The notes under the pieces are model-generated. The model saw only the letters and a program-made list of their open reading frames with translations, ran no database searches and was not told where the DNA came from. The translations under genes were made by a program, and so were the position numbers. 64,000 nt of DNA from Pontibacter qinzhouensis (GTDB taxonomy: Bacteria; Bacteroidota; Bacteroidia; Cytophagales; Hymenobacteraceae): NCBI RefSeq assembly GCF_008017455.1, contig NZ_VRTY01000008.1, positions 1 to 64,000 of the forward strand. Direction: 5' to 3'. Of this stretch, positions 5,325-44,368 are shown piece by piece (within the stretch, counting starts at the first letter, position 1; each line of letters begins with the position of its first letter).

Positions 5325-5548
5325 TAACTTCCTATTTTAGATAACTAGATCATAAACCAAATATTCGGCTTATCTGCACTATGTATGAAGATAGCATTCA
5401 CCAGTATTGCGAGAGAAAAGCCATCGCAGCTCAATAAAATGAATTATAAACAATTCTCCTATAGATCCAATTAATAAAGTAAAATCCTAAACAGAATAGA
5501 AGCTATATAACCACAGCCGCCCCAACTCCTCCCCCTTCCAAAGCAAAT

Positions 5549-5691
5549 TAATGCCACTTCATATTAAAGCTCTTCCAAGGCATTTCCTCATCTCTTTTCG
5601 CAATCATTCATGGTTCTCGCCTACAAGATCTTTCCAAGATGACAGAAAAATAGATGTAGTTAGGGAAAGAAGTTGATGCGATTTGGTATTA
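5549..5691 (+). mobile_element. 143-bp MITE-like element, copy 1
   Basis: This copy aligns almost end to end with 43498-43640, and both are 143 bp. The right end reads GCGATTTGGTATTA, and the left end (TAATGCCACTTCATATTAAA) is an imperfect inverted version of it. The interior shares ACAAGATCTTTCCAAGATGA and GAAAAATAGATG with copy 2. It contains no ORF. Its right end abuts a 57-bp dispersed element. I interpret it as a non-autonomous inverted-repeat element. Confidence 0.7.
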
Positions 5692-31746: not shown

Positions 31747-31835
31747 GCAGGTTTGTATTTTGGCTGAATCAGAATTTACAAAATGCAAGAATGTACAGAG
31801 TCTTGTTTCCAGCGCCAAAATTGAATCGCTGTGCA

Positions 31836-32027
31836 TAGTTTCCGACTACGCTCTTTCTATAACTAAATTTATTTTTTGTCTTCTTGGAAAGATCTTATGG
31901 GCGAGCACCATTAATGATTGCGATAAGAGATAATAAGGAGCAATGATACCAACAGGCAGTGGCTGACACAAAAGCGGGAGAATGATAAAGCGACTACCAA
32001 CTATAAAAAATGCGTAGTCGGAAACTA
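31836..32027 (-). mobile_element. 192-bp inverted-repeat element with REP-like ends, related to the 143-bp MITE
   Basis: TAGTTTCCGACTACGC (31836-31851) recurs exactly inverted at 32012-32027. Each end can itself fold: CGTAGT-CGGAA-ACTACG is perfect on the right, one mismatch on the left. On the minus strand the interior (31852-31935) carries CGCAATCATT, AAGATCTTTCCAAGA and TTTAGTTATAGAAAGAGCG, matching the 143-bp elements at 5549 and 43498. No ORF. It resembles a paired REP (BIME-like) structure carrying MITE sequence. Confidence 0.65.
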
Positions 32028-32068
32028 CGAACAGCGGATTTTAAATCGGCCAAACAATAATCACAACA

Positions 32069-41359: not shown

Positions 41360-43495
41360 ATGAAACCAGACTTTTCTACCATAGATTTACAGCAAGTAGC
41401 GGCTGCCACACACGGGCCCAAGGCTCCTTTGCCAGCTGCTACCTGGCAAACGGCAGAGCAGCTGGAACTGAAGAGTTTTTACACAATTGAAGACGTACAG
41501 GAGCTGGAGCACCTCGATTTTGGAGCCGGTCTGCCACCGTACCTGCGCGGACCCTACAGCACCATGTATGTACAAAAACCCTGGACCATTCGGCAGTATG
41601 CCGGTTTCTCTACAGCCGAGGAGTCTAATGCGTTTTACCGGCGCAACCTGGCTGGCGGGCAAAAAGGGCTTTCGGTCGCCTTCGACCTGGCCACGCACCG
41701 TGGCTACGATTCAGACCACCCGCGCGTGGTCGGCGATGTGGGCAAGGCCGGTGTGGCTATTGATTCGGTGGAAGACATGAAGATTCTGTTCGACCAGATT
41801 CCGCTGGACCAGATGTCGGTTTCGATGACCATGAATGGGGCCGTGCTGCCGGTTATGGCTTTTTATATAGTAGCAGCTGAGGAGCAGGGTGTAAAGCCGG
41901 AGCAACTGAGCGGCACCATCCAGAACGATATTCTGAAAGAGTTTATGGTGCGCAACACCTACATTTACCCGCCGGAGCCAAGCATGAAGATTATTGCAGA
42001 CATTTTTGAGTTTACCTCTCAGCACATGCCACGTTTCAACTCTATCTCTATTTCGGGCTACCACATGCAGGAAGCCGGTGCCACCGCCGACATAGAACTG
42101 GCCTACACCCTGGCCGATGGGCTGGAATATGTGCGCACTGGCCTAAAGGCAGGCATGAGCATCGACGATTTTGCACCGCGCCTCTCCTTTTTCTGGGCTA
42201 TCGGCATGAACCATTTTATGGAAATCGCCAAACTGCGCGCTGGCCGGATGCTCTGGGCCAAACTCCTAACACCATTTCATCCTAAAAACCCGAAATCGCT
42301 GGCTTTGCGTACCCATTGCCAGACCTCTGGCTGGAGCCTGACGGAGCAGGACCCGTTTAACAACATAACCCGCACTTGCGTGGAGGCGCTGGCTGCTGCC
42401 TTAGGTGGTACCCAAAGCCTGCACACCAATGCGCTGGATGAGGCCATTGCTCTACCAACCGATTTTTCGGCCCGCATTGCCCGCAACACGCAGCTGTACC
42501 TGCAGGAAGAAACCAATATTACCAAAGTAGTAGACCCCTGGGGTGGCTCTTATTATGTTGAATCGTTGACGCATGAGCTGGCTAATAAAGCTTGGGCTCT
42601 GATAGAGGAAGTAGAGGAACTTGGCGGCATGGCCAAAGCCATTGAAATAGGCTTACCCAAGATGCGAATAGAGGAAGCAGCAGCCCGAAAGCAAGCCCGT
42701 ATCGATTCGGGTAAGGATGTAATAGTGGGTGTGAACAAGTATCGCCCGGAATCAGTACAGGAAATCGATATTCTGGATATTGATAACACTGCGGTGCGTG
42801 AATCGCAGTTGCAGCGGCTGGCACAGGTAAAGGAAACTCGAAACCAGGAGGCAGTGCAAAAGGCTCTGGCAGCCTTAACGGCTGCTGCTCAGACTGGTTC
42901 TGGCAATTTGCTGGCACTGGCAGTAGAAGCTGCCCGCCACCGCGCTACCTTAGGCGAGATATCGGATGCCTTGGAAAAAGTATATGGAAGACATAAAGCC
43001 GTGATACGATCTATTTCAGGAGTTTACGCAGCAGAACTCTCCGACGATGAGAACTTTGCCCGTGCAAAAGCGCTGGCAGACAAATTTGATGCACAGGAAG
43101 GTCGCCGCCCCCGCATGATGGTGGCCAAAATGGGCCAGGACGGCCACGACCGTGGTTCCAAAATAATTGCCACCTCCTTTGCCGACCTCGGCTTCGATGT
43201 AGATATTGGCCCACTGTTCCAGACACCTGCCGAAGTAGCCATGCAAGCCGCCGAAAACGATGTGCACGTGGTGGGGGTATCGTCGTTAGCGGCTGGGCAT
43301 AAAACACTGGTGCCACAACTGATAGAAGAACTCCGCAAACTGGCCCGCGAAGACATTATGGTGATAGTAGGCGGTGTGATTCCGGCCCAGGATTACCAGT
43401 TCCTCTACGATGCCGGAGTAGCTGGCGTGTTCGGCCCGGGCACTATTATTTCGGTAGCCGCACAGGATATTCTGGAGAAGCTGATGAAGGGGTAG
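41360..43495 (+). CDS. mutB: methylmalonyl-CoA mutase large (alpha, catalytic) subunit
   Basis: A 711-residue adenosylcobalamin enzyme. Substrate-barrel segments [20 protein letters not shown] and [15 protein letters not shown] lead to a C-terminal B12-binding domain with [14 protein letters not shown]; the axial-ligand His is near residue 595. It works in propionate/succinate metabolism and pairs with MutA just upstream. Its stop is only 2 bp from the 143-bp MITE-like element, so the downstream transcript runs into that repeat. Confidence 0.97.
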
Positions 43496-43497
43496 TA

Positions 43498-43640
43498 TAA
43501 TACCAAATAGCATAAAGGCACTTCCATAGCATTTGCTCATCTCTTTTCGCGGTCATTTGTGGCTCTCTCCCACAAGATCTTTCCAAGATGACAGAAAAAT
43601 AGATGCAGTTATGGAAAGAGGTTTGTGCGATTTGGTATAA
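43498..43640 (+). mobile_element. 143-bp MITE-like element, copy 2
   Basis: Imperfect terminal inverted repeats of about 28 bp: left TAATACCAAATAGCATAAAG; right, read inverted, TTATACCAAATCGCACAAAC. The interior is shared with 5549-5691 (ACAAGATCTTTCCAAGATGA, GAAAAATAGATG), and both copies are 143 bp. No ORF. It begins 2 bp after the mutB stop. Confidence 0.75.
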
Positions 43641-43656
43641 TTATAACATTTATACT

Positions 43657-43712
43657 GGCGCGGAAGTTACTTCCGTGACCTGCCAATAAAAGCGAGTTTG
43701 TAACTCGCGTGA
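43657..43712. repeat. pair of REP-like hairpins
   Basis: GGAAGTTACTTCC (43662-43674) and GCGAGTTTGTAACTCGC (43692-43708) are each perfect inverted repeats. Both are followed by GTGA-C (GTGACC, GTGAACC), so they look like two units of one family. They lie in the spacer between mutB and the hydrolase gene. Confidence 0.6.
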
Positions 43713-43780
43713 ACCACCACTCACAGCTACTGCTGCTTCCACAAGTACGACTTTATCCGTATCTTCACTTCAAAAAAAGG

Positions 43781-44368
43781 ATGGCATCAGCGTTTGCGCA
43801 TGCTCTGGCGGCAGTCGCCATTGGTAAAGCATATTCCGGCAGGCTTACCTCTGCTAAATTCTGGTTTCTGGGCATCGTGTGTGCTATTGTTCCGGATGCG
43901 GATGTGGTGATGTTTAAGCTGGGAGTACCTTATGAACATGCACTGGGCCACAGAGGCTTTTCTCACTCGTTGGTGTTTGCTTTGCTGTTGGGCATCATCA
44001 TAACAGCTATCTTTTACAGGAATATTAAACTCACTAGCCAAAAGGGTTTACTGCTTATCCTCTTTTTCTCGCTCTGCACGGCTTCCCATATTTTGCTCGA
44101 TGCCTTAACCAATGGAGGCTTAGGGGTTGCCGTATTTGCACCCTTCAATAATACCCGTTATTTTCTGCCCTGGCGGCCAATCCAAGTTTCGCCAATTGGA
44201 GTTGGCAACTTCTTTAGCGAGTGGGGCTGGCGGGTTATTAAAAGTGAACTGGTCTGGGTGGGTATTCCTTCGGCCGTTTATATGCTACTGACCTCATTAC
44301 TAAAATCAAGAAAACTTAAACAAAGGCGCCCAAGCCCTGATAGTCAGATCAGCAACAAATTATTCTAA
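43781..44368 (+). CDS. membrane-bound metal-dependent hydrolase, YdjM/DUF457 family
   Basis: A 195-residue protein with four to five membrane helices. It has the family's His/Asp pattern: MASAFAHALAAVAIGKAY, GIVCAIVPDADV, GHRGFSHSL and SHILLDALTNGG. I chose the ATG at 43781, preceded by AAAAAAAGG; an upstream in-frame GTG would fall inside a REP-like hairpin. The stop TAA is provided by the dispersed element that begins 8 bp before it. Physiological role unclear. Confidence 0.87.
   Translation: MASAFAHALAAVAIGKAYSGRLTSAKFWFLGIVCAIVPDADVVMFKLGVPYEHALGHRGFSHSLVFALLLGIIITAIFYRNIKLTSQKGLLLILFFSLCTASHILLDALTNGGLGVAVFAPFNNTRYFLPWRPIQVSPIGVGNFFSEWGWRVIKSELVWVGIPSAVYMLLTSLLKSRKLKQRRPSPDSQISNKLF

Follow-up and report, generated by a model that had tools for sequence, protein, structure and literature searches.

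A short repeat family of Pontibacter, probably a MITE of an IS630-like element with a 3-bp TWA footprint

Introduction

The RUP repeat of Streptococcus pneumoniae is 107 bp long with ends like those of IS630-Spn1; it occurs in many copies, is accompanied by target duplications, and is proposed to move in trans (PMC3049150). RUP with IS630-Spn1 of the pneumococcus is the system to which the Pontibacter MITE described here is closest in kind. Both are short repeats whose ends resemble those of a co-resident IS630-family element and for which mobility in trans is proposed (PMC3049150); the Pontibacter MITE differs in its sequence, in its 3-bp TWA duplication, and in a palindromic core in its middle that is common to other repeats. 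The IS630 and ISY100 elements insert at and duplicate TA and possess single transposase genes (PMC2170065). The partner element of the Pontibacter MITE, on contig C158 of the same genome, resembles them in its N-terminal helix-turn-helix, C-terminal DDE domain, terminal inverted repeats, and expected cut-and-paste movement (PMC2170065). Its lineage diverges from this description by duplicating TWA, by splitting its coding region into two ORFs that meet at an A run, and by a presumed D–E spacing of 31 residues. Further afield, the eukaryotic Tourist-type MITEs of PIF/Harbinger elements combine a TWA duplication with a short palindromic body, as the Pontibacter MITE does, and use another type of transposase. 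No Pontibacter MITE was found in the titles and abstract openings of the top-ranked open-licence papers, and a text search of a review of prokaryotic MITEs (PMC10969869) gave 0 occurrences of IS630.

A sequence-only reading of the window (the whole 64,000-nucleotide stretch of Pontibacter qinzhouensis DNA that was analysed) had singled out two 143-bp copies as a non-autonomous element moved by a transposase encoded elsewhere. The observation is real, and the proposal is now supported by further copies and by a transposase-bearing element with matching ends. The best explanation, to which we assign a probability of about 0.92, is that the 143-bp repeats are non-autonomous MITEs that depend on an IS630-like element, whose transposase mobilizes them in trans at TWA. 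The family is short and noncoding, has terminal inverted repeats and a target-site duplication, and its ends match those of an autonomous element.

Two copies in the window

Both 143-bp copies are present where they had been placed (Table 1), and they align at 81.9% identity, against a mean of 45.7% and a maximum of 52.6% in 200 shuffles. The reported length of 143 bp holds exactly for copy 2, which comprises 137 bp of element and 6 bp of duplication; copy 1 amounts to 138 plus 6 bp and starts at 5548, one base earlier than had been read. Likewise, the inverted ends are borne out in copy 2 (75% over 32 nt), while in copy 1 the repeat finder returned an inner 12-nt pair only, so the left end of this copy is regarded as decayed; it now reads ATGCC, against TACC. 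The family codes for nothing, as had been noted, and no ORF of at least 80 aa overlaps copy 1; an 84-aa antisense ORF from mutB extends into copy 2. With its duplication, copy 2 indeed begins 2 bp past the mutB stop codon. The TA duplication that had been guessed gives way to TTA around copy 1 and TAA around copy 2, that is, TWA. Window positions 31827-32036 hold 35-nt inverted arms (86%) with GTTTCCGACTACG, around or beside the truncated third copy, which apparently represent another palindrome family.

Table 1. Positions of the two MITE copies, their parts, and neighbouring features in the window.
Feature	Position	Strand	Remarks
MITE copy 1	5551..5688	+	138 bp; alignment and junction analysis
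Left terminal repeat, copy 1	about 5551-5579		decayed
Right terminal repeat, copy 1	5661-5688		17-20/28 against insertion-sequence ends
Palindromic core, copy 1	5618..5644	+	
Left target-site duplication, copy 1	5548..5550		TTA; junction analysis
Right target-site duplication, copy 1	5689..5691		TTA; shared with the interrupted dispersed repeat TTATTCTAATGAAAAAGGCCTTCCGAA
MITE copy 2	43501..43637	+	137 bp; single long imperfect hairpin
Left terminal inverted repeat, copy 2	43501..43528	+	23/28 against left end of C158 insertion sequence
Right terminal inverted repeat, copy 2	43610..43637	-	22/28 against the same C158 left end
Palindromic core, copy 2	43567..43593	+	
Left target-site duplication, copy 2	43498..43500		TAA
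Right target-site duplication, copy 2	43638..43640		TAA
Truncated third copy	31851..31936	-	no recognizable ends
mutB (methylmalonyl-CoA mutase)	41360..43495	+	context just upstream of copy 2, outside the element

Further copies and their age

The additional copies anticipated by the sequence-only reading exist both in the genome of origin and in a second genome of the genus, G028, which holds 27 terminal-repeat matches and at least 67 matches to the element model. A similarity search of the window's own genome (6.2 Mb, 220 contigs) with copy 1 recovered copy 2 (E = 1.2e-36), another three long copies on contigs C151, C214, and C146, the truncated minus-strand copy in the window (matched over 31852-31931), and eleven short mid-element matches. 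With copy 2 as the query and a looser limit, 42 matches were obtained, which mostly cover just this core of 30-40 bp and in a few cases an end; most element-model matches in this genome are also core-only, among the matches listed. The MITE is few-copied in the window genome and has spread to dozens in G028. Pairwise identity is 70.5-80.1% among four own-genome copies as bounded in the alignment, and averages 74.1% (range 58.5-97%) among 20 elements of G028. Judged by its sequences, the family has a long history in both genomes, although G028 also contains some younger pairs. At five places in G028 (contigs C5, C17, C21, C31, and C54), two element matches of opposite orientation overlap, as would be expected had one of them inserted at the end of its partner.

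A likely parent on contig C158

A terminal-repeat pattern was built from the left end of copy 2 together with single ends on C158, on C202, and in G028. Allowing up to three mismatches across 41 genomes of the genus, it matches only in the own genome (four times) and in G028, and the reversed pattern yields no match in the same 41. Two inverted matches of the own genome bound an element of 1,160 bp (C158:34885-36044) that carries two minus-strand ORFs in different frames. ORF A (164 aa; PF13565) contains HTH_32 and HTH_23 and ORF B contains DDE_3 (PF13358, 72.5 bits); the two correspond to the two halves of the IS630 transposase model NF033545 of NCBIfam, ORF B scoring 114.4 bits and ORF A 66.5 bits, the latter alone below the cutoff of 100. 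They meet at TTTAAAAAAAAC, an A8 run, and in the relatives of genomes G040 and G216 a run stands at the same place, as A8 in 12 of 14 copies and as A7 in two (L176 and L167). This constancy argues for slippage or frameshifting and against decay. ORF B is shortened in two other G040 copies, L172 and L178. The presumed second D and the E of the C158-type transposase are separated by 31 residues; the usual value is 34.

The DDE ORF is rare. At E <= 1e-10 it is found in the own genome alone among the 41 of the genus, and a further match there (on C8) is only 32% identical; G028, the richest in MITEs, has no transposase of the C158 type at this threshold. At E <= 1e-30, six of 390 genomes of the order have a match. 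Its close relatives outside the own genome lie in G216, from another genus of the family (three copies, 74%), and in G040, from another family (eight copies, 71%). A full transposon with the same termini, which the sequence-only reading had proposed to look for, is found on C158 as well as in G040 and G216.

Insertion sequences and MITEs alike have bipartite 28-bp ends, with an outer TACCAAATAG and an inner CTTCCATA at positions 21-28. Compared with six insertion-sequence ends, those of copy 2 agree at 19-23 of 28 positions (Table 1 gives the right end of copy 1). Nothing else in common was noticed between the MITE and the insertion sequence, so the MITE does not appear to be a simple deletion product. 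The C158 element is the likely parent of the MITE family.

The TWA footprint

Complete copies of the insertion sequence are best represented in G040, where 11 of 12 end matches belong to such copies (1,160-1,161 bp, eight of them identical); the twelfth, L177, has no second end and was left out. With three more from G216 (1,157-1,158 bp), all 14 complete copies span TACC to GGTA, and all 14 are flanked by an equal triplet, either TTA or TAA. The footprint is hence a 3-bp TWA duplication in 14 of 14 complete copies and not the 2-bp TA duplication of IS630. A TA duplication next to symmetric ends was considered and rejected, since the middle base of the triplet is the same to the left and right of elements. 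As the copies were checked for a TA duplication and do not show one, the partner is named IS630-like, a variant lineage rather than a plain IS630 member; it should nevertheless work like one. The flanks of the C158 element itself are unequal (TAA and TTA). No 3-bp duplication for any IS630 element was found in the titles and abstract openings of the top-ranked open-licence papers.

The MITEs bear the same mark. Equal flanking triplets are present in 15 of 24 two-ended MITEs (14 TAA or TTA, one TGA; p = 8e-5 by 100,000 permutations of the right-hand triplets) and unequal ones in the other nine; L133, misbounded by the script, reads CAA/TAA by eye and is also unequal. These 24, of which 23 are from G028 and one is copy 2 of the window, are what remains of 30 loci after removal of two C158 ends, the chimera L118, and L127, L129, and L140, which are cut by an IS110-like end.

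Insertion sites, filled and empty

Copy 1 had been described as abutting a dispersed element; reconstruction of the empty site instead places it within a dispersed repeat. Removing 5551-5688 and one TTA rebuilds GCAAATTATTCTAATGAAAAAGGCCTTCCGAA, a 32-mer that 14 other uninterrupted stretches of the window match at 24 or more positions, and that has no match in the window when reversed. The left side of this site consists of just eight bases, TTA included, of which the 14 stretches match five to eight, all ending in ATTA; without the duplication the left side comes down to five bases, of which at least four are matched by 2.1% of the 5-mers in the window. With the reserve that its left side is tested by eight bases, copy 1 appears to have landed inside the dispersed repeat at TTA. 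This repeat, (C)AAATTATTCTAATGAAAATGGCCTTCCGAAGGC, occurs at 15 places in the window (such as 1695, 8476, 16116, 39129, 44355, and 63767), has no Rfam match, and is often found terminating, on the right, a longer mosaic repeat that belongs to the own genome.

For copy 2, the neighbouring YdjM-type hydrolase (window 43709-44365) led to 17 loci, six of them from Pontibacter at 72-84% identity, above all others, and in all six the hydrolase lies directly downstream of mutB, as in the window. The mutB–hydrolase interval contains neither an element end (best 14-16/28) nor the core (12-15/27) in any of these six records; the same comparison on the window interval gives 28 and 28 for the ends and 27 for the core. 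Alignment with the relatives' mutB interval did not yield an exact empty site for copy 2, and joined flanks (n = 23) compared with 50 genomes gave no clean empty site in another species, among the few candidates scored per genome and listed. One G028 element has a related, weak empty site within a minisatellite of the same genome. The interval of the Pontibacter records holds other palindromes, and in L095 (1859-2413) an IS200-like ORF (Y1_Tnp, 28.5 bits); similar palindromes (GGCGCGGAAGTTACTTCCG) occupy window positions 43652-43705, where no IS200-like ORF was seen. Sigma-70-like matches lie on the plus strand at 43473-43501 and 43612-43641, where the ends of copy 2 together with TAA make TATAAT. 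Two were found against 0.7 expected, the second after TG. They possibly constitute an outward promoter, though promoters of this genus may be of another type.

A core separable from the ends

The palindromic core, CTCCCACAAGATCTTTCCAAGATGACA in copy 2, is present in most elements examined, altered in L115, and missing from L135. As L135 keeps the family ends and TTA/TTA flanks, the ends define the mobile unit. Most cores of the own genome sit in a different, longer mosaic repeat, and in C202 the left half of this repeat is joined to the right end of a MITE. Together with L135, these arrangements indicate that ends and core are separable modules. The mosaic repeat, which accounts for most of L015-L038, runs from a hairpin GTTCTTTTTGTATCAAGACAAAAAGAAC through GCTATGCGAACTTAGACTA, the core, and TTGGCTACCGCACAACTT to the dispersed repeat.

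The occurrence of the core across the genus is a point in favour of a quite improbable rival, namely, that the family consists of REP-like palindromes moved by a tyrosine transposase (RAYT or IS200-like), in which case the core would be what moves and the ends would be incidental. The core pattern GCCCACAAGATC-N2-14-GATGACA is present in 17 of 59 genomes, comprising 17 of 37 from the genus and 0 of 22 others, and its control has no match in the 59. Fifteen of the 17 have no terminal-repeat match, though in G026 the element model does find diverged matches of full length. In the core stem, 94.0% of cells pair (88.2% in shuffles) and 13 cells show double changes (4.8 in shuffles), values reached by none of 500 shuffles. 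The pairs with double changes (two) and the pair types (four) are no more numerous than in shuffles (260 and 383 of 500), which means that only two pairs account for the covariation; one set of core variants took 26-base forms only, leaving out longer ones. An IS200-like ORF is confirmed once in the genus, in L095. To our knowledge, tyrosine transposition of REPs is expected to produce neither target duplications nor terminal inverted repeats. Against this expectation, the MITE shares transposon-type ends and duplications with the DDE element, and L135 retains both without a core. The REP-like rival may explain the core-only copies.

Slightly less probable again is that the element has been retained for its role as a functional RNA or 3′-end structure, such as a terminator or processing site, and is no transposon relic. 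Copy 2 folds into one long hairpin (-43.8 kcal/mol, z -3.96) directly after mutB, where the six relatives have, by eye, a GC-rich hairpin missing from the window. Such a palindrome follows from inverted repeats alone, however, and copy 1 folds no better than shuffles (z -0.70). RNAalifold predicts no pair across 25 aligned elements, in a gappy alignment; the window has no Rfam family at gathering score, and the mutB strand shows no terminator-like site between 43440 and 43720. There is no strong case for an RNA function.

Least probable is a parent of PIF/Harbinger or IS5 type, with the likeness of the MITE ends to those of the IS630-like element being secondary: TWA triplets, a signature of PIF/Harbinger (TNA in some IS5 groups), do flank MITEs and complete insertion sequences and had led to a first guess of an IS5/Harbinger parent, which was dropped because the elements with the same ends encode HTH and DDE_3 proteins that match the IS630 model, and no IS5-type domain is among the Pfam matches.

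The core and an IS110-like element

Nine contig ends of G028 (loci L231, L242, L246, L250, and L251-L255) share the same 131 bp. All nine read ...AAGACAGTAC|CTTGTGGGC (GTAC|CTTGTGGGC) and so interrupt the core at GCCCACAAG; what follows is MITE-like sequence, of which L255 keeps only part. One end of the element in G028 is visible; a similar end (79%) in the own genome adjoins an IS110-family transposase (PF02371, 80.3 bits; PF01548, 74.4 bits), from which we infer that the G028 element is IS110-like. As nine of nine ends fall at the same core base, the MITE core looks like a landing site of this element. IS110 elements pick their targets, palindromic repeats included, by means of a guide RNA. 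A broader proposal combines these strands: the IS630-like lineage would have shifted from TA to a 3-bp TWA stagger, and its MITEs, by carrying a core that is an IS110-family landing site, would spread targets for a second, probably RNA-guided, element. We put this forward tentatively, as the odds are somewhat against it.

Implications

Under the preferred reading of an IS630-like MITE, the sequences predict the following course. The transposase would be made as an ORF A–B fusion by a change of frame at the conserved A run, would bind the bipartite terminal repeats of the MITE as its predicted binding site, and would excise the MITE and insert it at TWA by way of a 3-bp staggered cut; the MITE would thereby move in trans through the enzyme of the larger element.

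Although the family is a MITE of an ordinary sort, its ends, footprint, and empty site link it to its likely parent. Two features are out of the ordinary, namely, the TWA footprint and the apparent use of the core by an IS110-like element. The partner departs from insertion at TA, a trait treated as fixed in IS630/Tc1/mariner elements, and it thus represents a natural case in which to study how a DDE transposase comes by its stagger length. The breakage of the core by one IS110-like end in nine of nine cases suggests, in turn, how target sites for one mobile element may be supplied by another.
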